Translations under genes and position numbers: made by a program
Notes under the pieces: model-generated
What the model was told of the DNA's origin: nothing
Database searches by the model: none
The model's input: only the letters and a program-made list of their open reading frames with translations
Shown here: piece by piece, positions 7,448 through 26,916 of the stretch
How positions within the stretch are numbered: the stretch's first letter is position 1
Layout: each line of letters opens with the position of its first letter
Assembly (NCBI RefSeq): GCF_003046175.1
Contig: NZ_PZZM01000001.1
Location: 186,001-250,000 of the forward strand
DNA length: 64,000 nt
Source of the DNA: Bosea sp. 124
GTDB lineage: Bacteria > Pseudomonadota > Alphaproteobacteria > Rhizobiales > Beijerinckiaceae
Direction: 5' to 3'

Positions 7448-7456
7448 CGCCGGGGA

Positions 7457-11500: not shown

Positions 11501-12462
11501 ACGCGCGCGGATGGTCGCATCAGCCCCGCAACGGTCCATTCGGCCCCGGTCGTCGGTTTGTGCGCGATCTCGACGCGGGGCGAGAGCGTACAGGCACCGG
11601 CGCGCAGATCGTCGCCGAACCAGGTGACCACGAGGGAGACGCGCCGGAGGTTGGGACAGAGCGCAGTGAGGTGCCCGAGCGCGGTATCCACGTCCGAGCC
11701 GCCATAGAGCTGGTGGCGGGTCAGGCTCCCGGTCACGCCGGGCTCGGGCTCGTGGCTGACCGCGCGGGTCTCGTAGACGAATTCGCTCGCGCCGGGGATC
11801 AGCGTGACGGCGCGGATCATGCCGCCGAGCCCATCGACCGCGCGCACCACCTCGAAGGCGAATTGCGGCACGCGGTTGCCGTAGTCGCCCAGCGGAAAGC
11901 GCTCGAACACGACATAGGCCAGGCCGCGATAGGCCGGCGCCGCACCAGCCTCCTTGGCTGCGATCAGCGGATCGGGCTCCTGCGCCTCATGACCGTGATG
12001 GACGCGCATGCCGACCGTGGTGACATCGAGTTCCCGACCGTCGACCCAGATGCGCCGGACGAAGGCGATCTGCCCCTCGCACAATCCGATCGCGAGATTG
12101 GCGTAGTAGCTGTACGTCGTCTCGACGGTCTTCTGGCGCGGGCTGCCCTTGCCGCCGCCCTTGCTGCGCGTCACCGTGACCTTGATCTCCTCCTCGAAGC
12201 GCGTCGCCCAGATCAACTGGCCGCCGATGCGGGCGCGGCCATAGACGCGCGGGATCGCCGCGCCTTCGCTGGCGGCCAGCCCGTCGATCTCGGTCAGGCG
12301 CGGTCCTTCGACCACCTTCGTGCTGCCGCCTCCGCCGAGGACGGACTGGTCGATGCGGGCGCCGGCGATGCCACCGATCGCCTGGCCTATGACGGCGCCG
12401 ATCGGGCCGCCCAGAGCCGTGCCGAGCACGCTGCCCGCGACCTGCAGAAGAAGCGTCGCCAT
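8545..12462 (-). CDS. GTA baseplate/host-specificity protein (gp15, TIM-barrel 'megatron')
   Basis: This 1305-residue protein is the last gene of the gene transfer agent cluster. It begins with a glycine-rich hydrophobic segment (LLQVAGSVLGTALGGPIGAV), has a tail-protein domain, a central TIM-barrel-like domain with Trp/Tyr-rich segments (around 400-720) and C-terminal fibronectin/receptor-contact parts. In RcGTA the equivalent forms the large baseplate hub that contacts the recipient. The start at 12462 is chosen because its ATG overlaps the stop of the preceding NlpC gene (TGATG); a longer reading of 1323 residues from 12516 would overlap that gene. The reading frame is unbroken. Confidence 0.93.
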   Translation of the reverse strand: MATLLLQVAGSVLGTALGGPIGAVIGQAIGGIAGARIDQSVLGGGGSTKVVEGPRLTEIDGLAASEGAAIPRVYGRARIGGQLIWATRFEEEIKVTVTRSKGGGKGSPRQKTVETTYSYYANLAIGLCEGQIAFVRRIWVDGRELDVTTVGMRVHHGHEAQEPDPLIAAKEAGAAPAYRGLAYVVFERFPLGDYGNRVPQFAFEVVRAVDGLGGMIRAVTLIPGASEFVYETRAVSHEPEPGVTGSLTRHQLYGGSDVDTALGHLTALCPNLRRVSLVVTWFGDDLRAGACTLSPRVEIAHKPTTGAEWTVAGLMRPSARVVSEFGGRPAFGGTPSDESVIRLIRRLRDDYGLEVVLYPFVMMDVPAGNALPDPASGAPGQPHYPWRGRITCAPAPESPGSVDGTAAADGQVASFLGTVGAADMSIDGERIVCASPDEWSYRRFILHYAMLAQVAGGVSGFVLGSELPGLTRVRGAAGYPMVDGLVSLAGEVGTLLPSATLTYAADWTEYGAHTRNGGQDVAFPLDPLWASPTIGAIGIDFYPPLSDWRDTSDHADAGIATGPSDPGYLRGRLNAGEAYDWYYADAAGRLAQTRLPITDGAHGKPWVFRQKDLLGWWSYPHVERAGGVEITATAFVPGAKPIWLTEIGMPAVDKGANAPNVFPDAKSAESGYPYFSSGARDDLVQARGLEAIISGFDPAREGFEASRNPVHPVTGIRMVDPANIYVWSYDARPFPAFPDLGGVWADGASYDTGHWLNGRIEGTPVDRLLRRVLADFGLPAADAISVDGFLDGYVLDRPLSPRQALEPLSQAFGFDATMSAGKLVFRGRAGTVARRLGQDDWVLDRDGRPYELRRAQESELPLELRLGFSDAESDYRAAAARSRRLAGAARREIGVETAIVTRPAEGQRLADQRLQEVWAGRETLELDLSPRCLDLEPGDVVALPVDGDERLFRLTRIDDGPTRKAAARAVEPAIYRSSGAPSLPRPPKTAPALPGRPMVVPFALPIVRVPPPPLLSLAAFASPWPGALAVWQADGAGQFDLLRLIEAPSIVGETLTVLPPGPIWRTDPHAVLDLRLRGGILSSVAPEVALAGANALALLDADGTVEIVTVAHVELVGTRQFRLSGFLRGIAGSEAAAGRSLPIGSRVVVLDGAAVSLTDDLADLGQERRYRIGPVQRDLGDPSMVEITATASIAALAPLSPVHPRARRVAAAVEIGWIRRTRIDGDSWDLAEVPLGEEAELYEIMVHNGDTELRRTRTSTPAWTYPAALELADFGAPQAEFAIVIAQISAVAGRGHEWRGRVPVR

Positions 12463-12905
12463 CAGTCGGTCACTCCGGGAAAGGAGAAGCGGTGGCTCAG
12501 ATGCCGCCGCCACCACGGCGAGAAGGCAACTTCGCCGACCTGCGCGCTGTCATGGGCATGGATGATGCGGTCGGGCGCACTCAGGATGGCGCAGTGCTTG
12601 GCCGGGAGATGCGCGCGCCAACGGAACAGCAGGACATCGCCCGGCCGTTCCAGGTCTCGCCCGACCGGTACGAGATGGCGCAGCGCCGCCGTGGCGAGCG
12701 TTTCCATTCCGAGACTTTCCGCCCAGCTCGGCGAATAGGGCGGCAGGGTCTCCGGCTCGGTTCCGTAGAGGTCCCGCCAGACGCCGCGCACCAGCCCGAG
12801 ACAGTCGCAGCCGACATCGCGCAGCGAGGCCTGATGGTGATAGGGCGTACCGAGCCAGAGCCGGGACGCCGCGACGATGTCGGCCCGCGAGATGGCGGCC
12901 GTCAT
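12462..12905 (-). CDS. GTA NlpC/P60-family peptidoglycan hydrolase (gp14)
   Basis: The 147-residue protein has the NlpC/P60 active-site layout: the cysteine in GCDCLGL (about 33-35), a histidine in KHCAIL and a second polar/histidine site at IIHAHD. In GTA particles this protein sits at the tail tip and opens the murein of the recipient cell. Its ATG overlaps the stop of gp13 (ATGA) and its stop overlaps the gp15 start, so all three are translationally coupled. Confidence 0.93.
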   Translation of the reverse strand: MTAAISRADIVAASRLWLGTPYHHQASLRDVGCDCLGLVRGVWRDLYGTEPETLPPYSPSWAESLGMETLATAALRHLVPVGRDLERPGDVLLFRWRAHLPAKHCAILSAPDRIIHAHDSAQVGEVAFSPWWRRHLSHRFSFPGVTD

Positions 12906-13783
12906 CGGAACAGGCTCCCGCCGTCGAGCGTCCCGTCGCCGGGCCTGACGCCTCCGATGATGAAGTCGTTGCCCGGGATATGCGGGAAGCCGCGGAAATT
13001 AATGCTGTTGCCGAATTTCGACTGGCAGGTCGCGAAGCTCTTGTCGCAACCGGGCGAGACGGTGAAGGCGTCGCCCGCAGCGATCGGCGCAGGCGGCGCC
13101 TGCCAGAGCTGGAGCGCGACCAGACCGCCGGCCGCGCCATGGCGCTTCACCTCGGTCGCGAAGCCGACATTGGCGCCGGCGGTGAAGACGAGACGGCCGC
13201 CGGTGAAATGCCCATCCGCGAAGCCCACGAGCGCCGGGGCGGTCAGACCGAGGCGACCGTCGCTCGTCACGACATTGGCCGCGACCGCCGCCAACGCCAC
13301 GCCGCAGCGCCCATCGCCGAGATCCGCCGAGCAGGAGCGCATGTAGAGTCGGCCGCGCTCCTCGTCGAACGCCTTGGCGAGCCCCCGCACCTCGGCGGTG
13401 AAGCCGGTGTCGCCGCGTCGGATTTCGCCGACGAAACCTGTTTCCAGCAGCACGCGCTGCGAGACGTCGGCCCAGTTCGTCAGCCAGATCGAGACGCGGG
13501 CGTCGTCGTAGAGCCCGCGCGCGAGGTCGGCCTCGTTCAGGCCGGTCGCCGCGAAGGCGCCCGAAACCTCGCCGCCGCCGATGGCGAAGCCGAGTTCGGC
13601 CGAAGCCTCGGCCGCTTCCAGGCCTGTCGCGGCCGCGAAGACGATGCCATCGAAGCTCAGGGGCCCGTCGTGATCGGTAAAGCCGAGCACGGCGCCATCG
13701 CGGCGCGTCAGGCTCCAGCAGCGGCAGAGCGTCGTCGCGCCCTGGACGAGATGGGCGGCAAGGGCTTCAGGAATGTCGCGCAT
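12902..13783 (-). CDS. GTA tail hub protein, DUF2163/phage BR0599 type (gp13)
   Basis: The 293-residue protein starts at MRDIPEALAAHLVQG; an upstream in-frame start at 13846 is unlikely because it lacks family similarity. It has an N-terminal DUF2163 domain and a C-terminal BR0599-type domain. Cysteines in MRSCSADLGDGRCGV and GCDKSFATC are in the positions that, in the related lambda tail protein gpL, hold an iron-sulfur cluster; cluster binding here is inference. It links the distal tail to the baseplate. Confidence 0.9.
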   Translation of the reverse strand: MRDIPEALAAHLVQGATTLCRCWSLTRRDGAVLGFTDHDGPLSFDGIVFAAATGLEAAEASAELGFAIGGGEVSGAFAATGLNEADLARGLYDDARVSIWLTNWADVSQRVLLETGFVGEIRRGDTGFTAEVRGLAKAFDEERGRLYMRSCSADLGDGRCGVALAAVAANVVTSDGRLGLTAPALVGFADGHFTGGRLVFTAGANVGFATEVKRHGAAGGLVALQLWQAPPAPIAAGDAFTVSPGCDKSFATCQSKFGNSINFRGFPHIPGNDFIIGGVRPGDGTLDGGSLFR

Positions 13784-13829
13784 CGGGCTGTCCTTCTGGG
13801 ATGATCCTGCCTCGCGGAAAGATTTCGCC

Positions 13830-14471
13830 TCAGGGCTTGATCTCAACGATGGGGATCTTGGGGATTTCGCCGGCCTCGAAGGCGGAGAGATCGACCTCGA
13901 TCGCGTCGATGTCGAAGCGCACCGGTACGTCGAAGAGGAAGCCGGCCGTCACCATGGCGCCCGGTCCCGGCAGATGGCCGGCGGCGAAGGTGACGCGTCC
14001 GGTCGCGGCATCGCAGGTGACATGGCCGGGGTCGTCGGCCGGGACGCCATCGACCGCGACGGCGACCTCGCCAGGCACCGGCTTGGTGATCGGCCGGCGA
14101 TAGGTCGCGATGCCGGTGCCGTAGTGCTTGCAGAGCTGGAAGGTCCCGGTGACGCCATCACCGATGCCGATCGCCTGATCGGTCGCGGCCGGCGCCTGCG
14201 AGGGCGGGCAGCTCTTCCAGTCGAGCCTGTCACGCCAGCGGAAGCCGTACAGGCGCCCGCGCCGCTCCTCGAAGAAGGCAACGACGGCGGCCAGCGCATC
14301 GAGCGTGCGGATGCCGACGCCGGCGTCGTAGCGCCGCCGCGAATGGGCCCAACGGCTGTTGCGCACCTCGCGGCCCGAGGCCAGCGTCACGATCTGCGTC
14401 AGGCGCTCGGGCCCGCCGCGCGCGCCGCGGGCGATGTCGGTCGGGAAGCGGATCTCGTGGAAATCGGTCAT
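13830..14471 (-). CDS. GTA distal tail protein, DUF2460 (gp12)
   Basis: The 213-residue protein begins MTDFHEIRFPTDIARGARGG, the typical N-terminus of DUF2460 (TIGR02217) tail proteins, followed by the conserved RRYDAGVGIRTLDAL region and the GFRWRDRLDWKS segment. In RcGTA it is the distal tail protein between the tube and the hub. It lies between the tape measure and hub genes, in the order found in other GTA clusters. Confidence 0.92.
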   Translation of the reverse strand: MTDFHEIRFPTDIARGARGGPERLTQIVTLASGREVRNSRWAHSRRRYDAGVGIRTLDALAAVVAFFEERRGRLYGFRWRDRLDWKSCPPSQAPAATDQAIGIGDGVTGTFQLCKHYGTGIATYRRPITKPVPGEVAVAVDGVPADDPGHVTCDAATGRVTFAAGHLPGPGAMVTAGFLFDVPVRFDIDAIEVDLSAFEAGEIPKIPIVEIKP

Positions 14472-14483
14472 CGCCTCAAGCCC

Positions 14484-15086
14484 TCACAAGGCGCGGCCGC
14501 CGCGCGCCACGGCGCGCGCGATCGCCGCCGCAACCTGCGCCTCCGAGCGGCGGAAGCTGTCGGCATCGGGGGTCGAGACCTGCACGACCACGCTGAGCGG
14601 ACGGGCCGCCTCGCCGGAGGACCGCACGCCGAGGCGGCCATCGGCGCCGCGCGACAGCGGCAGGATCGCCTCCGCGCCGCGCTCGCCCATCAGGCCGAGG
14701 CCGCGCCCCAACGGAAAGTATGAGGGCGAGGCGATGACGCCACCCTCGGCGAAGGGCGCGACCGGCAAGGCTGCGCCACCTCCGAACCCGCCCAGGCCGA
14801 GACCGCCGGTGAACAGCCCCGTCAGGCTCTTCACTCCGGTGCCGAGCAGGCTGGAGAGCCCCGTCTGCAGCGGCTTCAGCGCCGATTTCAGCAGCGTCTC
14901 GGTGATCGAGCGGCCGACGCTGCGCAGCACATCCTCGAAGCGCTTGCCCTCGACGATGCCCTTGGCGAAGGCGTTGGTGATCGACTTGCCGAAGCTGTCG
15001 GCCGATTTGCCGAGGCTTTGCGTCAGCGAGCCGAGCTGCCGCATGTCGGTCAGGCGTGAGGAGAGCACGATGTCGTCGTCGGGCAT
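14484..15086 (-). CDS. GTA tail tape measure protein (gp11)
   Basis: The 200-residue protein is short compared with phage tape measures, as expected for the short GTA tail. An N-terminal helical part (about 1-75, with repeated hydrophobic heptads) is followed by a glycine-rich hydrophobic segment (TGLFTGGLGLGGFGGG) and the motif FAEGGVIASPSYFPLGRGLG found in tape measure C-termini. The gene is in the expected place after the assembly chaperones. Confidence 0.9.
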   Translation of the reverse strand: MPDDDIVLSSRLTDMRQLGSLTQSLGKSADSFGKSITNAFAKGIVEGKRFEDVLRSVGRSITETLLKSALKPLQTGLSSLLGTGVKSLTGLFTGGLGLGGFGGGAALPVAPFAEGGVIASPSYFPLGRGLGLMGERGAEAILPLSRGADGRLGVRSSGEAARPLSVVVQVSTPDADSFRRSEAQVAAAIARAVARGGRAL

Positions 15087-15122
15087 GGCGGATCTCGCAA
15101 TCGGAAAACGAAGGACGCCGGC

Positions 15123-15332
15123 TCAGGCGTCGGGATGGGCGGCCATCAGGGCCCGAAGCGCATCGCGTGCGGGCACCTCTGACATGTGTTCGGTCCGATG
15201 GGCCCGGAGCGCCGCGCCGATCTCGCGCGGGGTCGCGGCCCAGAAGGTCTCGGGCGGCCAGCCGAGCCGGCCGAGCCCGAAGGCCATGACCTCGCGCCAG
15301 GGAAACGGGACGGCCGCCGCCGGCGGGATCAA
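15123..15332 (-). CDS. GTA tail assembly chaperone, rcc01693-like (gp10.1), TTG start
   Basis: This 69-residue protein contains PFPWREVMAFGLGRLGWPPETFWAATPREI, the typical core of the small rcc01693 family encoded between gp10 and the tape measure in GTA clusters. The only sensible start is TTG at 15332, which overlaps the gp10 stop (TTGA), so the two are translationally coupled. Longer readings of this frame run through gp10 in the wrong frame and were discarded. Confidence 0.85.
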   Translation of the reverse strand: MIPPAAAVPFPWREVMAFGLGRLGWPPETFWAATPREIGAALRAHRTEHMSEVPARDALRALMAAHPDA

Positions 15333-15700
15333 GCCGCCGGCGGCTGAGGAGGGCGTGGCCCGGCGCCGGCCTCCGTCGCAGATTCGTCGGCCGGATCGCC
15401 GAAAGTCGCGTCGAGCAGGGCGATCGCGGCCCTGATCGCGCCGTTCAGGCCGCCGTCGAAGGCGAAGCTCGCCACCTGATCCTCGCTGACGCTGCTGCCG
15501 GCGCCGCGCAGGCCGGCCGTGAGGATGCGCGTCACGTCCCGCGCCGAGAGCCTGCCCCCGGAGAAGCGCTCGCCCAGCGCCGGCAGGCTGTCCACGCTGA
15601 ACGCATGCTCGAGTTTGGCAAGCGCCCCCAGGCTGAGGCGCATCGGCAACGGCTCGCCCTCGACCATCAGAACCGTTTCGCCGCGATAGCGGTTGACCAT
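15329..15700 (-). CDS. GTA gp10 family protein (tail assembly chaperone)
   Basis: The 123-residue protein starts MVNRYRGETVLMVEGEPLPMRLSLGALAKLE, the usual pattern of the GTA gp10 family, which pairs with the following small protein as a tail assembly chaperone. A GTG five codons upstream overlaps the gp9 stop, but the AAGGGGG run five bases before the ATG at 15700 makes that ATG the better start. The C-terminal tail is Pro/Ala rich. Confidence 0.88.
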   Translation of the reverse strand: MVNRYRGETVLMVEGEPLPMRLSLGALAKLEHAFSVDSLPALGERFSGGRLSARDVTRILTAGLRGAGSSVSEDQVASFAFDGGLNGAIRAAIALLDATFGDPADESATEAGAGPRPPQPPAA

Positions 15701-15711
15701 GCCAGCCCCCT

Positions 15712-16122
15712 TCACAGCGCCACGAAGGCGAGCTGACCGGCCGATTCCAGCGAGAGGTCGAAGGTGACCTCGCCGGCATGGTCGCCACGATATTCCAGGC
15801 TCGAGAGCTGGAACGGCCCTGTGATCGTGCCGAAATCGGGCACGATCACCTGCCAGTCGCGGATCGTGCCGTCGAAGAAGAGCTGGCGCACCAGCGCGTC
15901 GGAAGCCTCCTCCTTGAAGATGCCGGCACCACTGATTGCGGCGCGCCGCATCCCTGCCCCCGCCAGCAATTCGCGCCAGCGGCCGGCCGATTCGGAATGC
16001 GTCACATCCACCGTCTCCGCGTTAAAGGCGATCTGCCGGGCGCGCAGCCCGGCGACCGTGACGAAGCCGCCCTCCGCATCCTCCGCCTTGAGCAGCAGGT
16101 CCTTGCCCTTCTGTGCCGACAT
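15712..16122 (-). CDS. GTA major tail tube protein (gp9)
   Basis: The 136-residue protein (MSAQKGKDLLLKAEDAEGG) has the length and layout of the TP901-1-type major tail proteins of GTAs, with the conserved RARQIAFNAETVDVTHSES region and the C-terminal FDLSLESAG segment. It polymerises into the tail tube. It lies between the tail terminator gene and gp10. Confidence 0.93.
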   Translation of the reverse strand: MSAQKGKDLLLKAEDAEGGFVTVAGLRARQIAFNAETVDVTHSESAGRWRELLAGAGMRRAAISGAGIFKEEASDALVRQLFFDGTIRDWQVIVPDFGTITGPFQLSSLEYRGDHAGEVTFDLSLESAGQLAFVAL

Positions 16123-16153
16123 ACGGCGTCTCCTTCATCCGGTGTTGGTGAAA

Positions 16154-16564
16154 TCAGAGGGTTTCGGTCACGGCACGGAAGTGGATCGCGACGAAGGCGA
16201 GCCCGGACGCGCCGTCCCGCGCCAGCCGGCTGGAGTGCCAGCGCAGATTGACGAGCCCGTGCCCGGCCGGCGCGAGCGGTGCGTCGTTCAAGGCCGCGAC
16301 GACCAGCGCCGCGGCCTCCAAAGCCTGCCGGGAGGAACTGCTTTCTCCGGCCCAGACGGTGAGCCCGAGATTCTGTTCGCAGCCCCGGTCGCTGCCGGTC
16401 GACCAGTCGCGCGCCTCGACATCGCCATGGACGATGTAGAGGCCGCTCGCAGCGCGGGGCGCCTCGTCATGGATGCGGCCGGGGCCGATCAGCGCCGTGA
16501 GGGCTGAATCCGCCTGCAGCCGGGCCTGGATCGCGGAGCGCAATGCGAGGATCGCGTCGCTCAT
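16154..16564 (-). CDS. GTA tail terminator, DUF3168 (gp8)
   Basis: The 136-residue protein begins MSDAILALRSAIQARLQAD and has the DUF3168 pattern with IVHGDVEARDWSTGSDRG and the VNLRWHSSRLARD segment. Members cap the tail tube at the head-proximal end. Its ATG overlaps the gp7 stop. Confidence 0.92.
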   Translation of the reverse strand: MSDAILALRSAIQARLQADSALTALIGPGRIHDEAPRAASGLYIVHGDVEARDWSTGSDRGCEQNLGLTVWAGESSSSRQALEAAALVVAALNDAPLAPAGHGLVNLRWHSSRLARDGASGLAFVAIHFRAVTETL

Positions 16565-16905
16565 GGCGTGCTCTCCAGGACGTGGCAGACGAGACGGCGC
16601 CGGCTGCCATCAGGATCGGCAACCGCGCGGATGTCGAAAAGGCGCTCGCCGTCGCGCAGGCGCTGGCCGGCATCGACGCCCGTGCGCCAGCGCATCGTGA
16701 CGCGGTGCGTCGCGGCCTGCTCGGACCGACCCCGGCGCCAATGCTCACCACCCGAGAGCCATTCGACCTGCGCCCACAGCGCTGCGACGGTCTCAAAGGC
16801 CTGTGTCGCCCCGCCGATCCCGTCCGGCGTCGCGACCGCGGCCTCGAGCACGAGCCGGCGCCGCAGCGTACCGACGGGCACGCCCTCGCCGTTGATGTCC
16901 GCCAT
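16561..16905 (-). CDS. GTA head closure protein (gp7)
   Basis: The 114-residue protein has the head-tail adaptor pattern GTLRRRLVLEAAVATPDGIGG, then WAQVEWLSGGE, and ends with FDIRAVADPDGSRRRLVCHVLE. It joins the connector to the tail. It overlaps gp8 by four bases. Confidence 0.91.
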   Translation of the reverse strand: MADINGEGVPVGTLRRRLVLEAAVATPDGIGGATQAFETVAALWAQVEWLSGGEHWRRGRSEQAATHRVTMRWRTGVDAGQRLRDGERLFDIRAVADPDGSRRRLVCHVLESTP

Positions 16906-16907
16906 GG

Positions 16908-17477
16908 TCAGAGCCTCGCGCGGCGGAACGGCGCGATCAGCGCCATGATCTCCGGCGGCAGCGCCTCGGCATCGCGCCCGACGACATCGCCGCGGCGCTC
17001 GAACCAGCGTCCCGCCAGCCGCAGCACCGCCTGCCGCAGCAGGACCGGCACCGCGACCGCGGTCGCGCCGAAGCCGGCGACGACGTCAATCTCGATCGCG
17101 CCGCGCGAACGGCCGATCTCGGGCACCTCCGCCACGACCCGCACGACCGGCGGATCGGCGGCCCTGTCGAGTTGCAGCGCCTCGGCGGCGACCGGCTGCG
17201 CTACACCCAGCACGTCATAGACACGTGCGGCCGTGATCGCGCCGACCGGCGAAAGCGGCAGGCGAATCTCGCCGCTCTCGGGCCAGCGGTCGATCACGAT
17301 GCGCCAGGTCTGGTCGACCAGGAGCCTGCCGGACGCGGCCTCGACCATCAGCCGGGCGGCTGTGATCAGCGTGCCGAGCAAATCGTCCTCCGCCGTCTGG
17401 TCGAGCCGCAGGAAAAGCCTAGCTTCGGAGAGTGAAACCGGCTCCTGCGCCGGCGGGGTCAAGGCAAGCGGCGTCAT
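16908..17477 (-). CDS. GTA head-tail connector protein (gp6)
   Basis: The 189-residue protein begins with the connector motif EPVSLSEARLFLRLDQTAEDDLL and LITAARLMVEAASGR seen in head-tail connectors of HK97-like phages and GTAs. A GGAG motif stands eight bases before the ATG. In other GTA clusters it follows the capsid gene directly; here 1.8 kb with two opposite-strand protease genes lies between, so it may need its own promoter or read-through transcription. Confidence 0.92.
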   Translation of the reverse strand: MTPLALTPPAQEPVSLSEARLFLRLDQTAEDDLLGTLITAARLMVEAASGRLLVDQTWRIVIDRWPESGEIRLPLSPVGAITAARVYDVLGVAQPVAAEALQLDRAADPPVVRVVAEVPEIGRSRGAIEIDVVAGFGATAVAVPVLLRQAVLRLAGRWFERRGDVVGRDAEALPPEIMALIAPFRRARL

Positions 17478-17551
17478 GATCGCTCCGATTCAGGGTTCAA
17501 TTGCAGGGGCCGACGCGCTATCCAGCGCCTCCTGTCCTGGGAGGAGCGCCG

Positions 17552-18331
17552 ATGCGCGTCGGATATCTGATCGCCTTGGCCGGCCTCGCCTGCGGCATGA
17601 CGCTGGCCGCGAAACCCGCGGGCGCTGTCGTCGGCGGCCGCGATGGCGGGCCGGCGGCAGGCTCGACGCTGATGGTCCTGAATGCGCGCGGCGGCGTCTG
17701 CACCGGCATCGTCCTGTCGGCGCGCGCGATCCTGACGGCGGCCCATTGCGCGGCCGGCGGCACGGATCTGCGCATCCATTGGAAGGACGGCGGCGGCGAG
17801 CCCGTGCTGATCGCGCCGACCGCCGTCGCCCTCCACCCCGAGTTCAATGCCAATGCGGTAGCGGCGCGGCGGCGCTCGATCGACCTTGCTCTCATCCGGC
17901 TGGGCGAGCCGCTTCCGGCCCGTTTCACGCCCGCCGTGCTCGTCGATGGTGCGCAGCCGCGCGCCGGCGCTCCGGTCATGCTGGCAGGCTATGGCGTCTC
18001 GCGGGAGGGCGAGGCTCGAAGCACCGGCGTCTATCGCTCCGCCACCCTCGCCGTGGTCGAGCCCTATGGTCCGGGACGGGTCCTGCTCTGGGCAGCCGAT
18101 CAAGCCGGAGCCGGCAAGCGCCCGGGGCCCGGCGCCTGCCAGGGCGATTCAGGCGGGCCGATGACCGGCAGCGATGGCGGCATCGTCGCCGTCACGAGCT
18201 GGTCGACCGGACCTGCCGGCAAGAGTTGCGGCTTGTTGAGCCAGGGTGTGCTGGTCTCGCCGCAGCGCGCCTGGATCGACGGGACGCTCTCGAGATGGGC
18301 CGAGCGTGCGTCCTGGACGAACGGTCGCTGA
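17552..18331 (+). CDS. Secreted chymotrypsin-fold serine protease 1, inserted in the GTA cluster
   Basis: The 259-residue protein (S1 family) starts at the ATG preceded by GGGAGGAG; an upstream in-frame start at 17501 lacks a signal sequence. A signal peptide ends at about residue 26 (PAGA), directly before VVGGRDGG, the usual N-terminus of an activated chymotrypsin-like enzyme. Catalytic residues are H65 (LTAAHC), D111 (SIDLALI) and S200 (CQGDSGGP). The position equal to trypsin Asp189 is glycine (G194), so trypsin specificity is not expected. It is convergent to nothing and reads against the GTA genes; the next gene is a paralogue. Confidence 0.93.
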   Translation: MRVGYLIALAGLACGMTLAAKPAGAVVGGRDGGPAAGSTLMVLNARGGVCTGIVLSARAILTAAHCAAGGTDLRIHWKDGGGEPVLIAPTAVALHPEFNANAVAARRRSIDLALIRLGEPLPARFTPAVLVDGAQPRAGAPVMLAGYGVSREGEARSTGVYRSATLAVVEPYGPGRVLLWAADQAGAGKRPGPGACQGDSGGPMTGSDGGIVAVTSWSTGPAGKSCGLLSQGVLVSPQRAWIDGTLSRWAERASWTNGR

Positions 18332-18396
18332 CGGAAAGGCTGGACTGCGCCGCAGCAGCCCATAGATTAGGCGTGTTCGTCCATCTGGTTCGCATC

Positions 18397-19239
18397 ATGT
18401 CATCGCGCGCGTTCGCCTTCATTCTCGCCACTGCTCTCGTTGCCGGCCTGTCGCCGGCGCTTGCCGTCGTCGGTGGCACGACTTCGCAGGATGTGCGGGG
18501 CGCGCGAGCCTCGACACTGCGTGTCGAGACCAGCCGGGGCGAACTCTGCTCGGGAGCGGCGATCGCGCCGGAACTGGTCCTGACCGCGGCGCATTGCCTG
18601 ATGGGCGGCGGCTCGGTCAGCGTCGTCAGCCTCGATCCGCGCTTCCGTGCACGCCGGCATGCCGTCATCGCGGTGCTTCCGCATCCGAGCTTCGTGCCCG
18701 GGACCACGCCGCGCACCCAGCCCGGCACCGATCTCGCGATGTTGCGGCTGGCGGCCCCGTTGCCCGCCGATATCCAGCCGGTCACGCTCGGCGGAGGACT
18801 TTGGCAAGGCGAGACCGTGACCATGGCCGGCTTCGGCCTCTCGGTCGAAGACAACAAGAAGACGGCGCGGCGCCTGCGCGAGACCAGGCTGGTCAACGCA
18901 GGCAACTACACCACGCAGAACACGGTCAAGGTCGCCGTCGATGCCGAAGCCAAGGGCGAAAGCCCGGGCGCCGGCGCCTGCCGCGGCGATTCCGGTGGTC
19001 CCGTGCTGCGCGGCAACGCCCATTCGCGCGATCTCGTCGGCATCGTGAGCTGGTCGAGCGGGCCGCTGAATTCGCGCGCCCGGCGCATCTGTGGCGGCTT
19101 CACCGCGATCACGCCGGTCAGCGAACATCGCAGCTGGATCACGGAGGCTGCGGCGCGATTGCTCGCGATGGGGCCGAACCCGCGCCAACTCGAGCGCGAA
19201 CCTCCGGCCGCCGGCTATAGCTGGTGGTTCTCGCGCTGA
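18397..19239 (+). CDS. Secreted chymotrypsin-fold serine protease 2, inserted in the GTA cluster
   Basis: The 280-residue paralogue of the upstream protease has a signal peptide (FAFILATALVAGLSPALA) followed directly by VVGGTTSQ. Catalytic residues are H67 (LTAAHC), D112 (GTDLAML) and S199 (CRGDSGGP), with glycine at the trypsin Asp189 position. A GTG eight codons upstream is an alternative start. It follows protease 1 by 65 bases on the same strand and ends 48 bases from the convergent capsid gene. The pair probably arose by tandem duplication. Extracellular or periplasmic action is expected; substrates are unknown. Confidence 0.92.
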   Translation: MSSRAFAFILATALVAGLSPALAVVGGTTSQDVRGARASTLRVETSRGELCSGAAIAPELVLTAAHCLMGGGSVSVVSLDPRFRARRHAVIAVLPHPSFVPGTTPRTQPGTDLAMLRLAAPLPADIQPVTLGGGLWQGETVTMAGFGLSVEDNKKTARRLRETRLVNAGNYTTQNTVKVAVDAEAKGESPGAGACRGDSGGPVLRGNAHSRDLVGIVSWSSGPLNSRARRICGGFTAITPVSEHRSWITEAAARLLAMGPNPRQLEREPPAAGYSWWFSR

Positions 19240-19267
19240 GGACGGGGCGCGAACGCCCCGCCCGTCC
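19240..19267. terminator. Hairpin between protease 2 and the convergent capsid gene
   Basis: GGGGCG (19244-19249) pairs with CGCCCC (19254-19259) around the loop CGAA, extended by GGAC (19240-19243) with GTCC (19264-19267) across a four-base bulge. It lies one base after the protease 2 stop and 20 bases from the capsid stop. There is no T run, so termination strength is uncertain. If it works in both directions it would also reduce GTA transcription into the downstream tail genes. Confidence 0.5.
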
Positions 19268-19287
19268 GCATCGGCTCACTTGCCGGC

Positions 19288-20532
19288 TCAGACCGCGAAT
19301 TTCAGGCCCTTGATCGCCGCGAAGTCCTGCACGCCGCCGCCGACGCGCTTGGTCGTGTAGAACAGCACATAGGGCTTGGCGGAGTAGGGATCCCGCAGGA
19401 TGCGGACGCCGGCCCGGTCGACGACGAGATAGCCGCGCCGGAAGTCGCCGAAGGCGAGCGAGACCGCGTTGTTGGCGATATTGGGCATGTCCTCCGCCTC
19501 GACCAGCGGGAAGCCGAGCAGCGTCGCCGGAGCCCCGACCGAAGCCGGTGGCTGCCAGAGATACTGGCCGGTCGTGTCCTTGAACTTGCGCACCTGGGCT
19601 TGCGTCTTGCGGTTCATCACGAAGGAGGCGTTCTGGCGATAGCCGGCCTTCAGCGCATAGACGAGATCGACCAGGATGTCGGAGGGGCTGGACGCGGCAA
19701 AGGCGCCGGCGACGCCTGTGTTGAGCACGCCGAGACTGCCCCAGCTCCAGACCCCGTCGGCCGCCGTCGGATAGGCCAGGAAGCCCTTGGGCTTGTCGAT
19801 GCCGTCCCCGTTGACGAAGGCCGCGCCTTCCTGCTCGGCGAAGGCGCTCTCCACCTCCTCGGCGATCCACTGGTCGATGTTGACGATGGCGTCGTCGAGC
19901 AGGGTCTGGGTCGCAGCCGGCATGGCATAGAGCTCCATGGCCGGGAAGGAGAGTTCGGCCAGTGCCGGGGAGCCGGTCTGCGGGCGGGCGGACGTCTCGG
20001 CGACCCAGCCGGAGGCAGGGCCCGTGGTTGAGAAAGCCTTCTTGTAGGTGCCGGACGAAATCGTCCGGACGGTGGCGATGGCGCGGATCGGGGACACCGT
20101 CGCCAGCCGCCGCAGGATCTCGCTCTCGACGCCCGACGGCGCGAGATAGCCGCCATCGGGGCCAGAGCCCGCCGAGAGCGCCTTGCCCTCCAGCCGCTTC
20201 AGACCGCCGGCCTCGCCGCTGCGGATGTAGGATGCGAAGGCAGCCTTGTGCTCTCCCACCAGCGGATCGCGCGGCTCGTCGCGGCCGAGCGCCGGGCGGC
20301 TGCGGTCGAGCGTCAGCCGGTCGATGCGGCGCATCGCGTCGTCGAGCGCGGCATCCATCCGCGCCATCTTTTCCTCGGTCAGCGGGTCCGCGCCATGGCG
20401 GGTCTCGATCTCGGCGAGGCGCTCGTCATTGCTGACGCGGTAACTTTCCAGCATGTAGCGCAGATCGTCGAAGGCCAGCGACAGATCGGCGCCGGCGGCT
20501 TTGCTCTCGGGAGCGTGGTTGGCAGTGGTCAT
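19288..20532 (-). CDS. GTA major capsid protein, HK97 family (gp5)
   Basis: The 414-residue protein has an N-terminal helical delta domain (about 15-80, with LSLAFDDLRYMLESYRVSNDERLAEIE) that is removed during maturation, then the HK97 fold with typical segments such as TISSGTYKKAF, FPAMELYAMPAATQTLLDDA and EVESAFAEQEGAAFVNGDG. It forms the head of the GTA particle. It follows the protease gene by 24 bases. Downstream, the usual gp6 neighbour is displaced by the inserted protease genes. Confidence 0.95.
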   Translation of the reverse strand: MTTANHAPESKAAGADLSLAFDDLRYMLESYRVSNDERLAEIETRHGADPLTEEKMARMDAALDDAMRRIDRLTLDRSRPALGRDEPRDPLVGEHKAAFASYIRSGEAGGLKRLEGKALSAGSGPDGGYLAPSGVESEILRRLATVSPIRAIATVRTISSGTYKKAFSTTGPASGWVAETSARPQTGSPALAELSFPAMELYAMPAATQTLLDDAIVNIDQWIAEEVESAFAEQEGAAFVNGDGIDKPKGFLAYPTAADGVWSWGSLGVLNTGVAGAFAASSPSDILVDLVYALKAGYRQNASFVMNRKTQAQVRKFKDTTGQYLWQPPASVGAPATLLGFPLVEAEDMPNIANNAVSLAFGDFRRGYLVVDRAGVRILRDPYSAKPYVLFYTTKRVGGGVQDFAAIKGLKFAV

Positions 20533-20556: not shown

Positions 20557-21111
20557 TCAGGAGCGGGCAAAAGCGGCTTGGCCAGAGGCGGCTCGGGCAG
20601 AGGGCGGCGTGCAACGCAGTGCCTTGACGGCGGTGACGCGCGCCTGCGGCAGCATCGGAAAGGTGACGATCGAGACCTCCCAGAGATCGACCCGCTCCAG
20701 CCGGCGCAGGCCGCTGCGCGGCTCGGTGCGGGCCTTTTCCGAGCGGAAGCCGATCGAGAGCCCATCGACTGCGCCCTCCCGCATCAGCGCATGGATCTCG
20801 CGGGCACGGGCCACGGCCAGCGAAAGCTGGCCGCGAACGAAGAGCCCGCGCCCATCCTCGGCGAGCGCGACCCAGCGCCCGATCGGCTCGGCCGGATCGT
20901 GCTGCCAAAGCAGCTTGACGCCCCCCGGACCGCGCCGAACGAGGCTGTCGCGGAAGGCCCCGGGCTCGACCACGTCCTTGCCGAGATCGGCGATGCCGAA
21001 CAGGCTTGCATAGCCCTCGAAGAGACCGTCGGGCCTGATCCGCGCCGGCGGCAGGGGCAGGAACTTGGATTCGCGTGCGAAGGGCCCGGTCGCAAGAGCG
21101 CTCCTCATCAT
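20557..21111 (-). CDS. GTA prohead protease, U35 family (gp4)
   Basis: The 184-residue protein has the HK97 prohead protease pattern: FEGYASLFGIADLGKDVVEPGAF, the active histidine in LLWQHD and the nucleophile serine in VDGLSIGFR, then LWEVSIVTFPMLPQA. It trims the capsid delta domain. Its start overlaps the preceding small gene by four bases. Confidence 0.93.
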   Translation of the reverse strand: MMRSALATGPFARESKFLPLPPARIRPDGLFEGYASLFGIADLGKDVVEPGAFRDSLVRRGPGGVKLLWQHDPAEPIGRWVALAEDGRGLFVRGQLSLAVARAREIHALMREGAVDGLSIGFRSEKARTEPRSGLRRLERVDLWEVSIVTFPMLPQARVTAVKALRCTPPSARAASGQAAFARS

Positions 21112-21305
21112 CGGGCGCCCTCCCCGCCCTTTCCGGCTCGGGCCTTGCCGAAACGCGCCGCGCCGCCTTCCAGCCGGGCCAGGTTGCGCACGAAACGGCT
21201 GAAGATCTCGGTGTTCGCAGGCCCGCGCTGCGGTTTCTGCGGCGGCGACCGGCCAGAACTGGAGGATGGCGGCGGCGACGGCTTCTTTTCTCCGGAACGC
21301 GTCAT
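21108..21305 (-). CDS. Small Pro/Ser/Lys-rich protein in the GTA cluster
   Basis: This 65-residue frame lies between the membrane mini-protein and the prohead protease and overlaps both neighbours by four bases, which argues that it is translated. The N-terminal half is rich in Pro, Ser and Lys; the C-terminal half (TEIFSRFVRNLARLEGG) could form a helix. I recognise no family. It may be a GTA-specific accessory gene. Confidence 0.5.
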   Translation of the reverse strand: MTRSGEKKPSPPPSSSSGRSPPQKPQRGPANTEIFSRFVRNLARLEGGAARFGKARAGKGGEGAR

Positions 21306-21502
21306 GGCTGGTCCCCCTCGTGACGGGCGTTGAAGCGGTTGAGTTCGCGTACGAATTCGTCGAAGCGACGGTTGGCGGCAGTCAGTTCACGCAGCACGAA
21401 GAAGGCGAAGGCCGAGGCCGAGGCGGCCCAGAGCAGCAGGCCGAGATGGCCGACATCGGCGCGCCCGACAAAGGCGGCGACGATCTGTTCGAGCAGGTTC
21501 AT
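21302..21502 (-). CDS. Single-helix membrane mini-protein in the GTA cluster (g3.5 position)
   Basis: The 66-residue protein starts with the ATG at 21502, which overlaps the portal stop (ATGA); a longer 127-residue reading overlaps the portal gene and is rejected. A hydrophobic helix (HLGLLLWAASASAFAFFVL) is followed by a charged helix (RRFDEFVRELNRFNARHE). RcGTA also has a small gene between portal and protease; similarity of function is inference. Confidence 0.65.
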   Translation of the reverse strand: MNLLEQIVAAFVGRADVGHLGLLLWAASASAFAFFVLRELTAANRRFDEFVRELNRFNARHEGDQP

Positions 21503-22683
21503 GAGCCCGTCCCTCCGGCCGCCGGCGCCCGGCCGTAGCCGACCGCCTCGCGCTTCTCGTCCTCGCCGAGGAAGGTCGCGGCGGAGAGCCTCCGCCAGAG
21601 CGATTCCCGCTCCTCGGCGAGCGCCTCGATGGCATCGAGATCGGGCTCCAGCGTCAGCTCGCCGCCGAAGGCCGGACCAAGCCATTGCGCCAGCGACTGC
21701 GCCGTGCGCCGGACCAGCGGAATCGCGGTCTGGCGCCAGAAGGCGCGATTGGCCTCGGCGAAATTGGCATGGGTGTTGTCTCCCGGCAGGCCGAGCAGCA
21801 GCGGCGGCACGCCGAAGGCGAGCGCGATCTCGCGTGCCGCCACGCCCTTGGCGGCGACGAAGTCGAGTTCTGCCGGCGTCAGCGAGAGTGGCTTCCAGTC
21901 GAGCCCGCCCTCGAGCAGCAGCGGGCGGCCGGCATTGCGTGCGCCCTGGAAACTCTCTTCCAGTTCGGCCTTCAGGCGCTCGAACTGCGCCTCACTGAGA
22001 CTCGCACCGTCCGGGCTGTCATAGACCAGCGCGCCCGACGGCCTCGCCGCATTGTCGAGCAGGGCCTTGTGCCAGTGGCTGGCGGCGTTGTGGATGTCGA
22101 GCGAACAGGCGGCAGGCTCGATCGGCGAGAGGCCATAATGGTCGTCGACCGGGTGGAACAGCGTCAGGTGCAGGATCGGCGGCACGCCGCCCTCGTCTTG
22201 CCGGAAGCGGATGGTGTCGCCGCCGACCGTATAGTCATAGGCTTCCGGCCAGCCGTCGCGGCCGGGTACGATCCGCATCCGGTCCGGCCGCAGCGCATAG
22301 AGTTCTCGTGGCTCGTGGCCTGCGCTGGCCGCCTCGACATAGGCGTTGCCAGCGACAAGCAGATGGCCGAACAGCGTCTCGCGGAAGGCGATGCCGCCCT
22401 GGCGCGGATTGGGCCTGTCGATCAGGGCCAGTGCAGGGTGCTCGGGCACCTCGCGCGCACCAACCTTGGCGACGAGCGGAGTCTGGGCCGCCGCCTCCGC
22501 GATCAGCCGGACACAACGATGCACGACCGGGTTGCGCTCATAGCCCTCGCGGGCGAGCGCCGCATAATCGCGCGGCGTCCAGACCGGACGCCCCGCCTCG
22601 TGCAGGGCGATCAGCGGCCCGACGCGCGAGCGCTTGCGTTCCGGCGCGGCGGGGCCGCGCAGGTTGCGAAGGAAGTTGAGCAT
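21499..22683 (-). CDS. GTA portal protein, HK97 family (gp3)
   Basis: The 394-residue protein carries portal motifs: NPVVHRCVRLIAEAAAQTPL, PNPRQGGIAFRETLFGHLLVAGNAYVE, DHYGLSPIEPA and GVPPLLLGLPGDNTHANFAEA. It forms the dodecameric portal at one head vertex. It is separated from the terminase gene by a 151-base gap filled largely by a palindromic repeat. Its stop overlaps the next small gene. Confidence 0.95.
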   Translation of the reverse strand: MLNFLRNLRGPAAPERKRSRVGPLIALHEAGRPVWTPRDYAALAREGYERNPVVHRCVRLIAEAAAQTPLVAKVGAREVPEHPALALIDRPNPRQGGIAFRETLFGHLLVAGNAYVEAASAGHEPRELYALRPDRMRIVPGRDGWPEAYDYTVGGDTIRFRQDEGGVPPILHLTLFHPVDDHYGLSPIEPAACSLDIHNAASHWHKALLDNAARPSGALVYDSPDGASLSEAQFERLKAELEESFQGARNAGRPLLLEGGLDWKPLSLTPAELDFVAAKGVAAREIALAFGVPPLLLGLPGDNTHANFAEANRAFWRQTAIPLVRRTAQSLAQWLGPAFGGELTLEPDLDAIEALAEERESLWRRLSAATFLGEDEKREAVGYGRAPAAGGTGS

Positions 22684-22721
22684 GGAGGTCTCGCTGTTGG
22701 GTGCGTTGAACGCGTGTCGTC

Positions 22722-22829
22722 ATGCTCGGGCTCGACCCGAGCATCTCCCGCCGAGAGATTCTCGGGTCTGCGAGGAATTTATCCCTGGTCCAGCCATAGC
22801 CCGGGCCCGAGGGCTCCGCCCGAGAATGA
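22722..22829. repeat. REP-like palindromic element between terminase and portal
   Basis: ATGCTCGGG (22722-22730) and CCCGAGCAT (22736-22744) form a nine-pair hairpin with loop CTCGA. About 10 bases on, ATTCTCGGG (22754-22762) is repeated inverted as CCCGAGAAT near 22820-22828, enclosing a second GC-rich palindrome (GCCCGGGC, GGGCTCCGCCC). This is the structure of the dispersed intergenic repeats of many Hyphomicrobiales genomes. It lies inside the GTA transcription unit. Confidence 0.75.
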
Positions 22830-22834
22830 CGCTG

Positions 22835-24187
22835 TCAGATTCCCCTCACCCGCGGCCGGCCCTTCGGGCCCAGCATGAGATGGGTCAGTGCCCAGACCAG
22901 CGCGTCGAGCCGGTCCGGCGAGCGGCCGGAGCTGAGGCCGCCCGGCCCGAAATCGCACATCTCGTCCTCAAGCGCGGGGAAGGTGCCGGCATGGCGTACT
23001 CTCCCCTGCGCATAGAGTGCGGCGACTGGCTCGGCCCGCAGATATTTCCCGCGCGTCGCCCTGACTGCGGTTACCGGCACGCCCGCATCGACCTCGCCGA
23101 TGACGGAGGTCGCCATCTCGCCGCCCTGGTTGACCTCGACGACCAGCGCATCGGCCTCGAAACGCCGGTAGAGCGCGACGGCCTTTGCCGCCCATTCATG
23201 CGGGCGGGCGCCCGACACCGTGCCGTCCTCCAGCACATGGCCGAAGCCATCTCGATCGATGCCGGCCACGACCAAGCCGCAGGCATCCGCCCGCTGCGAG
23301 GACGAGGCGGGAGGATCGACCGCGACCACGATCCGCGCCAGGGTCGGCGCCGCGGCTTCGCGGCAGGCCTCGATCATGGCGCGCGTCCAGAGCGCGTCGG
23401 CGCTCTCCTCGACCAGTTCGCCATCGAGTTCCTGCCGGCCGAGCCGCGTGCCGCCATAGGTCTGCGTCACGCTGCGGATGAAGTCGGCCGCCAGGTTGAA
23501 GCGGTTCGCGCTCGTACCCGCGCGGCTGAGCGCGACATGCGGATCGGTCAGGAGACGCTTGATCAAGGGCACCGGGCGCGGCGTCGTCGTGACGATCTGG
23601 CGCGGCCTGTCGCCGAGGCGAAGCCCGAATTGCAGCATGTCCCAGCACTCCTGAAGGTTTGGCCATTTCGCCAGTTCGTCGGACCAGGCGGCACCGAATT
23701 GCGGGCCGCGCAGCCCTTCCGGGTCTTCCGCCGAGAAGGCCTGCGCGATCGCGCCGTTGGGCCATTCGAGACGCCGCCGCGACGGCGACCATGTCGGTCG
23801 TTCCCAGCGCGTGTGGATCGAAAGCAGTCCGGAAACACCTTCGATCATCACATCGCGCACCTGCCCTTGCGTTTCGCCGACGAGGGCGATGCGGCCGGAG
23901 AACGAGCTCGCGAAGGGTGACAGGCCGAGAGCCATGCCCTTGATCCATTCCGCACCCGTGCGGGTCTTGCCCGCGCCACGCCCGCCCAGCACCAGCCAAA
24001 CCGCCTTGTCGTCGGCACCCAGCGCAGGCTTCTGGTCCAGCCTTCCCCAATAGATCCAGTCGTCGACGACGACCTCAACCAGATCCGGCGGCAATTCCGG
24101 AAGCAGGCGGCGCAACAGCCTCGCCTGCGTCTTCAGCGATAAGGCGCTCCATGCGGCGTGCCAGCTCGCGGCGCAGTTCGGCGACAT
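22835..24187 (-). CDS. GTA terminase large subunit (gp2)
   Basis: The ATPase/nuclease packages host DNA into GTA heads. Walker A is GGRGAGKTRT, a Walker B/catalytic region is AAWSDELAKW, the coupling motif follows, and the nuclease domain begins at IVVAVDPPASS with later acidic sites. The start is uncertain: the frame is open to 24358, and the ATG at 24187 (giving 450 residues) is chosen because the sequence becomes family-like at about LKTQARLLRRLLPELPPDL; it still overlaps the preceding gene by 113 bases. Confidence 0.92.
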   Translation of the reverse strand: MSPNCAASWHAAWSALSLKTQARLLRRLLPELPPDLVEVVVDDWIYWGRLDQKPALGADDKAVWLVLGGRGAGKTRTGAEWIKGMALGLSPFASSFSGRIALVGETQGQVRDVMIEGVSGLLSIHTRWERPTWSPSRRRLEWPNGAIAQAFSAEDPEGLRGPQFGAAWSDELAKWPNLQECWDMLQFGLRLGDRPRQIVTTTPRPVPLIKRLLTDPHVALSRAGTSANRFNLAADFIRSVTQTYGGTRLGRQELDGELVEESADALWTRAMIEACREAAAPTLARIVVAVDPPASSSQRADACGLVVAGIDRDGFGHVLEDGTVSGARPHEWAAKAVALYRRFEADALVVEVNQGGEMATSVIGEVDAGVPVTAVRATRGKYLRAEPVAALYAQGRVRHAGTFPALEDEMCDFGPGGLSSGRSPDRLDALVWALTHLMLGPKGRPRVRGI

Positions 24188-24479
24188 GGCGCAATCCGGC
24201 GGTAGACGAGAGATCATCGTTCGACTTGTCCTCCCGGCCCAGTGTGGCCGCCTCGAGCGCCACCAGCTCGCGGACGGTGCGGGCGAGAACCGCCAGCGCC
24301 TTGGCATCGGCCTCGCTCGCCGCCGCTCCCTTCGGCAGTTCGTCGAGACGCGCCTCATGCGCGTCGAGCTGACGCTTGGCGGCCCGCCACAGCTTCGTCA
24401 CCACGGCCTTGCGGCCAACGGCCAAGCGCTTGCCCTTCGCGGCCGGCAGCGCCAGCGCATCGTCGTCTTCATCGGTCAT
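24075..24479 (-). CDS. Small terminase-like first gene of the GTA cluster (gp1)
   Basis: The 134-residue protein is helical and charged (VVTKLWRAAKRQLDAHEARLDEL, LARTVRELVALEAATLG) with little clear domain similarity, as is usual for GTA gp1, the small terminase. The ATG at 24479 is chosen over the ATG at 24485 because GGAG stands six bases before it and immediately adjacent to the other. It is downstream of a good promoter and its 3' end overlaps the large terminase. Confidence 0.75.
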   Translation of the reverse strand: MTDEDDDALALPAAKGKRLAVGRKAVVTKLWRAAKRQLDAHEARLDELPKGAAASEADAKALAVLARTVRELVALEAATLGREDKSNDDLSSTAGLRHVAELRRELARRMERLIAEDAGEAVAPPASGIAAGSG

Positions 24480-24639: not shown

Positions 24640-25221
24640 TCAAACCTGTTCCTTCTCGACCCATTTGTAGGTCGCGGCCGGGACATATTGCTCCATCCTG
24701 TCGAGCAGGGTCGCGGGCTGCGTATCGGTGATCGCCATGGCGCGGTGGGTCTGCTTGAGGAAACCCGCCTCCACCGTGTTGTCCAGGAACGCCGCCAGCG
24801 GATCGTAGAAGCCCGCGACGTTGAGGAAAGCGAGCGGTTTGTCGTGGATACCGAGCTGGCCCCAGGTCCAGATCTCGAACAGCTCCTCGAAGGTGCCGAT
24901 GCCGCCCGGCATGGCGATGAAGCCATCGGACAGCTCCGCCATCCGCGCCTTGCGGATATGCATGGTCTCGACGACCTCCAGCCGCGTCAGCCCGTAATGG
25001 CCGACTTCCTTCTCACGAAGGGCGCGGGGGATGATGCCGTGGACCTCGCCGCCGGCCGCCAGCGCGGCGTCGGCGACGATGCCCATCAGCCCGACCGCGC
25101 CGCCGCCATAGACCAGAACCATGCCGCGCCGGGCGATCTCCGCGCCCATGGCGCGCGCGGCATCTGCATAGACAGGTTCGTTTCCGGGATTGGACCCGCA
25201 GAAGACACAGACCGATTTCAT
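24640..25221 (-). CDS. LOG-family (TIGR00730) Rossmann-fold protein
   Basis: The 193-residue protein has the LOG signature [16 protein letters not shown] and the N-terminal [13 protein letters not shown] motif. LOG enzymes release cytokinin bases from their ribotides or act as nucleotide 5'-monophosphate phosphoribohydrolases; the bacterial substrate is often not known. The ATG overlaps the stop of the upstream peptidase gene (ATGA). A longer reading from 25440 lies inside that gene and is rejected. Confidence 0.93.
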
Positions 25222-26615: not shown

Positions 26616-26704
26616 GGCACTCGGCAAGGCTGGGCTCACGAGCGAACGGGAGCCGATTCAGATGGCGCCATCATGGCAAGGCTTGGCGGGTAAGGTAAGT
26701 CAGC

Positions 26705-26818: not shown

Positions 26819-26916
26819 ACGCGCCTGTCCAGGCAGAAGGTCTCGCCGGTTGATCCCGAAGTGACCGAAACGACCACATCGTCGTGCAGCGCGAGGCAGA
26901 TTCGATGTGAAGCGCT

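Follow-up and report, generated by a model that had tools for sequence, protein, structure and literature searches.

A conserved pair of S1-family serine proteases lodged in a GTA cluster of Bosea is likely kept for a GTA-independent host function

Introduction

GTAs are mostly discussed through their own genes. The window analyzed here, a stretch of 64,000 nucleotides from the genome of Bosea sp. 124 (5.47 Mb, one contig), raises a question about genes of another kind, as two genes for S1-family serine proteases stand inside its GTA cluster, between the capsid gene and the gene for the head-tail adaptor. Do these proteases serve the GTA, are they neutral cargo, or are they kept for the host cell? 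This passenger pair proved to be conserved across families and to be under purifying selection, and its fate could be followed in lineages with and without a GTA.

Results

The Protease Pair Lies within a GTA Cluster

The GTA cluster of the window is encoded on the minus strand. Its head genes (together 20557-24358) are those for the large terminase TerL (22835-24358), the portal (21499-22683) and the prohead protease (20557-21111), and next to them lies the gene for the major capsid protein gp5 (19288-20532; PF05065). On the other side of the protease pair are the gene for the head-tail adaptor gp6 (16908-17477; PF05135, PHROG 442 head-tail adaptor) and the tail block of gp7 to gp15 (8545-16905). 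The latter consists of gp7 (16561-16905), gp8 (16154-16564), the tail tube gene gp9 (15712-16122), gp10 (15329-15715; GTA-gp10 match), gp11 (assigned by position only, having no Pfam match), gp12 (13830-14471), gp13 (12902-13846), gp14 (12462-12905; NlpC/P60) and the megatron gene gp15 (8545-12516), which matched GTA_TIM and the NCBIfam GTA_megatron model (1640 bits). The order from TerL to gp15, including the GTA-specific gp10 and gp15, is that of RcGTA, and unlike in RcGTA, gp5 and gp6 are interrupted by the protease pair. Judged by gene order and GTA-specific genes, the cluster belongs to the RcGTA type. All of its frames from TerL to gp15 are open, in agreement with the original prediction that the GTA genes are intact on both sides of the insert.

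To the left of the GTA site, the window has genes for an OmpR-type response regulator (7457-8125, minus strand) and a sensor kinase (6071-7447, minus strand), and those for CcmE (4360-4890) and CcmF (2370-4352) are found further left. The right neighbors in Bosea are an M20 peptidase and a HerA-like ATPase (25218-28902, minus strand), instead of which many other genomes have a CxxCxxCC protein and a penicillin-binding protein.

The insert between gp6 and the capsid gene measures 1,810 bp (17477 to 19288), and both proteases are encoded on the plus strand, so that the predicted location, a 1.8-kb opposite-strand insert exactly at the gp5/gp6 junction, was confirmed. Copy 1 (17552-18331; 259 aa) diverges from gp6 across a spacer of 74 bp (17478-17551), the gp6-proximal part of which is conserved in Bosea. 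Copy 2 (18397-19239; 280 aa counted from ATG) converges on the capsid gene across a spacer of 48 bp (19240-19287). This convergent spacer contains a GGGGCG/CGCCCC inverted repeat without a T-run, which is not kept in all Bosea. From this geometry, antisense RNA between the pair and the GTA genes is possible. A scan for signals of the pair's own returned 0 promoter-like sites (sigma-70 patterns only) and 1 terminator-like site, located inside a gene, versus 0.7 expected. The GC contents of the proteases (0.727 and 0.700) lie within the range of seven GTA genes of the neighborhood (0.685-0.728), and no foreign composition of the pair was seen.

Anatomy of the Two Proteases

Both copies are open frames that matched PF00089 (Trypsin) with scores of 77.3 and 93.3 bits (cut-off 20.6), and the Pfam matches of the pair were limited to Trypsin and Trypsin_2. 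The triad contexts TAAHC, DLA and GDSGG were found in both. The H, D and S of the catalytic triad are kept in 123 of the 123 copies aligned (proteins of more than 200 residues, taken from stop-free frames), the two window copies among them. The AlphaFold model of copy 1, built from a 13-row alignment, has a pLDDT of 81.4 and a chymotrypsin-type two-barrel fold; it matched 1353 PDB chains at E <= 0.001, the best matches being trypsins and elastases. By triad, Pfam and the modeled fold of copy 1, the copies are thus assigned to the S1 (chymotrypsin) family. NCBIfam and PADLOC offered no usable family for the proteases, the PADLOC matches being weak.

A Sec signal peptide is predicted for each copy, with PAGA in copy 1 and PALA in copy 2 preceding the predicted mature start VVGG. 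These features bear out the prediction of two intact S1 proteases that would be exported. A signal-peptidase-type site (a small residue at -1, a small or aliphatic one at -3) stands directly before a V/I/L/M/A start in 122 of the 123 aligned copies (the exception being L028), and the mature position +3 is Gly in 103 of the 123. Both copies have the cysteines expected for the S1 pairs C42-C58 and C191-C220, as positioned by motif, and four cysteines are invariant across the 13 alignment rows. Copy 2 has a C-terminal extension ending in YSWWFSR. Trypsin has Asp at residue 189. This residue, placed by motif spacing six positions before the catalytic Ser, is Gly in both window copies (GPGACQGDSGG and GAGACRGDSGG), so a trypsin-type preference for Arg/Lys would not be expected.

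Position of the Pair across the Order and in Other Collections

In the order sample of 297 genomes, a protease match (E <= 1e-8) was found in 46 and a capsid match (E <= 1e-30) in 203. Four families accounted for 38 of the 46 protease matches (f1, 11; f20, 12; f36, 10; f50, 5), and the other eight (families f35, f28 and f2; E 4e-11 to 5e-10) were treated as other trypsins. The comparison covered 39 loci around protease matches, one capsid locus of the family that has no protease (L030) and 80 loci with a capsid from other families. An on-site protease together with a GTA was present in 20 genomes of the sample (f1, 10; f20, 8; f36, 2). The map of gp6, opposite-strand protease(s) and capsid was the same in 19 of these, while in the remaining one (L050) the contig stops on the gp6 side. 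Position and strand at the junction are conserved in three families, and the recent insertion, lacking in relatives, that had been named as a refuting outcome was rejected on this basis.

The 80 control GTA loci of other families, which have no junction protease, showed a median gp5/gp6 gap of 164.5 bp. The gap reached at least 500 bp in 13 of them (three annotated, the remainder inspected by eye), and a likely unrelated gene was seen at 3 of the 80 junctions. The junction therefore tolerates genes, if rarely. Of the idea that other GTA clusters commonly carry genes here, the tolerance thus stood and the commonness did not. At the gp5/gp6 junction, L092 has a zinc-type dehydrogenase with clear Pfam matches (about 2206-4017), L094 a PIN-like protein just below the Pfam cut-off (about 2218-3286) and L085 a 177-aa frame without a family name. 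Two of the 80 control-locus genomes (G034 and G274) have a weak off-site protease-like match.

The class sample of 367 genomes gave only five matches at E <= 1e-12, all in f1 and f36; in the order and class samples, strong relatives of the pair occur in its own order only. A large protein collection held 1001 proteins at E <= 1e-10, and among the best 120 of these 1001, all those with an organism name came from Bosea or Hyphomicrobiales. Among named records, Bosea stands closest to the window, and the identity of copy 1 to the loci L008-L012, from Bosea and Hyphomicrobiales, is 83-86%. Three matches to copy 2 in viral_contigs (L227, L228 and L229; IMG/VR) turned out to be GTA clusters of the Bosea type that carry the pair at this junction. 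Neither copy had a match among 50,697 phage records, and a phage origin of the pair was rejected on these grounds.

Proteases with and without the GTA Capsid in One Family

Family f1 was represented by 199 genomes. A GTA-type capsid was called at E <= 1e-90, and 3 of the 119 family capsid matches, with E above this value, were dropped as prophage-like. The protease was present in 146 of the 199 genomes and the GTA capsid in 116. Both occurred in 101 genomes of 26 genera, the protease without the capsid in 45 genomes of 17 genera, the capsid without the protease in 15 genomes of two genera (g5 and g159), and neither in 38 genomes. The protease adjoins the 3' end of the capsid gene on the opposite strand, at a distance of 3-3305 bp, in 100 of the 101 genomes with both; in the other one, they are on two contigs. 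Given the 15 GTA-bearing genomes without protease and the 38 with neither, the protease is not essential. Its frequency was higher with the GTA (101/116) than without it (45/83), with an odds ratio of 5.7 and a p of 3e-7 that take no account of kinship. Deletion of both together could suffice to explain this association, as could a partly GTA-linked benefit.

As a control gene for GTA presence, gp9 was searched for in the same 199 genomes (E <= 1e-20); it misses 8 of the 116 capsid-bearing genomes, and two weak matches (G334 and G423) were dropped. The 83 genomes without a GTA capsid kept the protease in 45 cases and gp9 in 5. The protease with neither capsid nor gp9 was found in 42 of the 83, and gp9 alone in 2. 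Eleven of the 45 capsid-less protease genomes are assemblies of at most 10 contigs, and some capsid absences stem from fragmented drafts (G320, G327 and G335). In several genera, for example g144 (9 genomes) and g133 (6), every sampled protease genome is without a GTA capsid.

GTA_TIM (PF13547), also tried as a GTA control, had matches in 155 of the 199 genomes and was rejected. The excess is apparently due to prophage copies and to another type, encoded by frames some 760-860 aa long. It should be noted that GTA_TIM-type genes occur elsewhere in some capsid-less protease genomes (e.g., G218, G348, G378, G423, G439 and G478), on other contigs or more than 1 Mb away, so that other RcGTA-like elements, perhaps prophages, may remain in capsid-less genomes. 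The f50 genome G150 (locus L056) has a capsid match (E 1e-104) at a place other than the site.

Sites without the GTA

On one side, the usual GTA site is bordered by the genes for a response regulator and a sensor kinase, with ccm genes adjacent to them, and on the other by the CxxCxxCC protein, then the penicillin-binding protein. In ten GTA-bearing genomes of nine other families, which carry no on-site protease, both neighbors were found in seven and one neighbor in three (in G004, the penicillin-binding protein only). Since the GTA stands beside at least one of the same neighbors in 10 of 10 genomes of other families, the GTA site is older than the insert.

We examined 53 loci that carry the protease but have no GTA capsid at the site; one genome is included twice (L016 and L162, to all appearances a single contig), L056 (G150) is counted, and 5 of the 45 capsid-less family genomes are left out (G335, G336, G368, G462 and G488). 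In 42 of the 53, a neighbor gene of the GTA site lies at most 5 kb from the protease with no GTA gene in the stretch, except for L183, where 43 residues of gp6 remain. The 42 include all five f50 loci, each with both neighbors, and 32 of the 40 f1 loci, ten of them with both. The other 11 are three f36 loci with non-matching flanks, three partly retained or fragmentary clusters (L171, L180 and L181) and five loci without a neighbor in reach.

The genome of Bosea sp. BK604 resembles the window over 1-8462, then has the pair and resembles the window again from 24635 onward; no capsid was found in this genome. At L171:8001-16994 (G373), the capsid beside the protease is reduced to its C-terminal end, with 41 residues matched, and gp6-gp15 are kept; no head gene was found in the 8 kb beyond the capsid remnant. 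This locus shows GTA decay in progress.

In genus g41 of f36, where flanks were compared for some loci only, a single protease has surroundings unlike the GTA site (L032, L034, L037 and L039). These genomes gave no GTA-type capsid match, apart from a weak one in G194, and it seems that the protease gene moved or that its surroundings were rearranged. Meanwhile, in the capsid-less loci L182, L190, L192 and L194 of g146, the protease is on the strand of the CxxCxxCC neighbor, which is inverted relative to the usual order.

Repeated Changes of GTA State and Selection on the Proteases

When the GTA state was mapped on the protease tree of 83 rows, 12 changes were counted, at least 9 of which are forced by well-supported branches; the rows are copy 1 or single copies, the GTA-bearing ones are thinly sampled (27), and the protease tree stands in for a species tree. 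Five genera (g4, g132, g142, g145 and g146) have GTA-bearing genomes alongside capsid-less ones with the protease by a GTA-site neighbor, and Bosea shows the same mixed state through BK604. We infer that losing the GTA is far more likely than acquiring a complete one anew at this position, with the pair enclosed in it.

The dN/dS ratios (Nei-Gojobori) of the proteases were 0.01-0.28 in ten GTA-less sets, namely two each from f36, f20, f50 and g160 and one each from g146 and g130. In Bosea with the GTA, the proteases had values of 0.04-0.21, compared with 0.07-0.17 in the capsid and 0.08-0.20 in gp6. Whether a GTA is present or not, the protease genes are maintained as coding sequences. Many protease matches carried flagged stop codons, which in the ten checked (fetched loci) were the natural end of the gene. 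A decaying insertion, the other possibility raised beforehand, was rejected in view of the purifying selection and the intact triads (123/123).

Discussion

What, then, keeps two proteases inside a GTA cluster? The findings probably reflect a pair of long vertical descent, which most likely inserted a single time at the GTA junction and is likely kept for a host function independent of the GTA. Many relatives without the cluster keep the enzyme genes in the same place, and the enzymes therefore likely serve the cell rather than GTA particles. Some genomes carry the GTA but not the pair, and others the pair but not the GTA, so that neither needs the other absolutely. The GTA would be the carrier that decays around the pair, and not the reverse.

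The shared junction suggests that a single entry between capsid and adaptor took place in an ancestor of several families of the order. The pair would be transcribed independently of the GTA, since transcription of its own is required in GTA-less genomes. With the GTA operon on, transcripts that run through the pair would be antisense to its genes. In S1 proteases, a new N-terminus completes the active site. Each enzyme is predicted to be made with a Sec signal peptide and without a propeptide, and signal peptidase would cut directly before the V/I/L start, which would fold back to complete the active site. As removal of the signal peptide would free the N-terminus needed for this, export is the predicted on-switch and the cytosolic enzyme would be inactive. 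Pairing of the cysteines into C42-C58 and C191-C220 (by position) would take place outside the cytoplasm. The enzyme may act in the periplasm or outside the cell on a host or environmental protein, with a pocket that is presumably unlike that of trypsin.

Other readings of the locus have to be weighed against these data. The original prediction considered that the proteases act in particle release or are switched in time with GTA expression. A role of this kind, for example in GTA lysis, would fit their fixed place inside the cluster and their higher rate in GTA-bearing genomes (101/116 versus 45/83). Trypsin-like peptidase domains can also be a requirement of GTA lysis, as reported for LypABC in PMC13236601. 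However, many genomes that lack a GTA capsid still have the proteases, with their triad and under purifying selection, GTAs do without them in 15 of the 116 GTA-bearing family genomes and at the 80 control junctions, and no CARD or ATPase family was matched in Pfam. We therefore consider it quite unlikely that the proteases serve the GTA. The benefit could instead fall to recipients or bystanders, survivors that digest protein from lysed producer siblings or prepare their surface for particle uptake, with GTA-less cheaters gaining as well. Both the tight linkage in GTA-bearing genomes and the persistence after GTA loss would then be explained, and cells without a GTA are argued, in the available text of PMC10883770, to profit from goods released by GTA-bearing cells. 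This is unlikely in view of g144 and g133, whose protease genomes are all without the capsid, so that producer siblings are not known there.

Neutral cargo, also proposed at the outset, would be passenger DNA at a tolerated junction, kept because nothing removed it; the likely unrelated gene at 3 of 80 control junctions is in its favor. Its probability is negligible, as it is contradicted by the dN/dS of 0.01-0.28 and the 123 of 123 intact triads, and the segment survives the loss of its GTA neighbors on either side. The clean order of neighbor, protease and neighbor at GTA-less sites might alternatively be the original state, with the pair first at the chromosomal site and the GTA arriving later around it. 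We regard this as very improbable, because the GTA adjoins one or both of the same neighbors in 10 of 10 genomes from nine other families that have no on-site protease, the pair is enclosed by GTA genes, and GTAs in partial decay occur (L171 and L183). Retention of the pair for the host thus remains the preferred explanation.

Morons of temperate phages are host-serving genes lodged between phage genes, and the pair is likely a set of moron-like host genes lodged in a GTA, with a function in the envelope or outside the cell. Like phage morons, it is inserted on the opposite strand between genes that are adjacent in relatives, is not needed by the particle in relatives and persists where the element is gone. 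Unlike them, it resides in a GTA and not in a prophage, at one junction conserved in three families, and its composition is that of the neighborhood, unlike composition being a common though not strict moron trait. Phage morons have a promoter and a terminator of their own; the scan of the pair, which for promoters covered sigma-70 patterns, gave nothing above chance. A benefit to the host, as morons provide, would be hinted at indirectly by the purifying selection on the pair in GTA-less lineages. In fold, triad and IVGG/VVGG-type start, the pair resembles secreted bacterial and fungal S1 trypsins (PDB 3i78, 1ppz and 1try), from which it differs by Gly in place of Asp189 (by motif spacing) and by a predicted start directly after the signal peptide.

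LypABC of Caulobacter crescentus is needed for GTA lysis and is likewise a case of trypsin-like serine peptidases connected with a GTA, as stated in the available text of PMC13236601. There, LypA and LypC have several domains, with CARD, ATPase or endonuclease parts among them, and are larger than the small proteins of the pair (259 and 280 aa). The pair further differs from LypABC in its predicted signal peptide and its occurrence with and without the GTA, and this persistence speaks against dependence on GTA lysis. A LypABC-type lysis system, with a CARD-like domain beside the peptidase and an NLR-type ATPase, was rejected, as Pfam gave only Trypsin and Trypsin_2.

That the proteases outlive the GTA is a new point. 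Among the matches listed from one open-licence library, no title or abstract reported such a pair outliving a GTA, and nothing relevant was found on morons. The pair can be used as a positional marker for GTA loss, it makes selection on the passenger separable from selection on the GTA, and it provides an enzyme that can be tested in GTA-bearing and GTA-less lineages alike. As a speculation that we hold to be unlikely, the GTA may be the long-term carrier of an enzyme pair kept more strongly than the GTA itself; the pair would mark extinct GTAs and might digest the protein of lysed siblings, to the profit of producers, recipients and GTA-less descendants.

Several loci showed additional features. 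In a GTA of genus g4 (L020:8500-9603), a 367-aa gene with a GGDSGS motif lies between copy 2 and the capsid gene on the capsid strand; it had no Pfam family above the cut-off, and L021 has a similar junction gap. At L033:6957-15929 (G236), one of the 19 loci with the common map, a stretch of about 7 kb with a terminase match and capsid fragments parts the protease from the capsid; a further phage element seems to have inserted there. In Bosea vaviloviae SD260 (L011:15263-19125), 44 residues matching the GTA large terminase lie beside the portal and are followed by a second phage-like set (a portal 28% identical, prohead- and adaptor-like matches), so that this GTA looks interrupted by another phage element. 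Four f20 loci (L051, L052, L053 and L059) have a third, more distant S1 protease off the GTA, with its triad intact.
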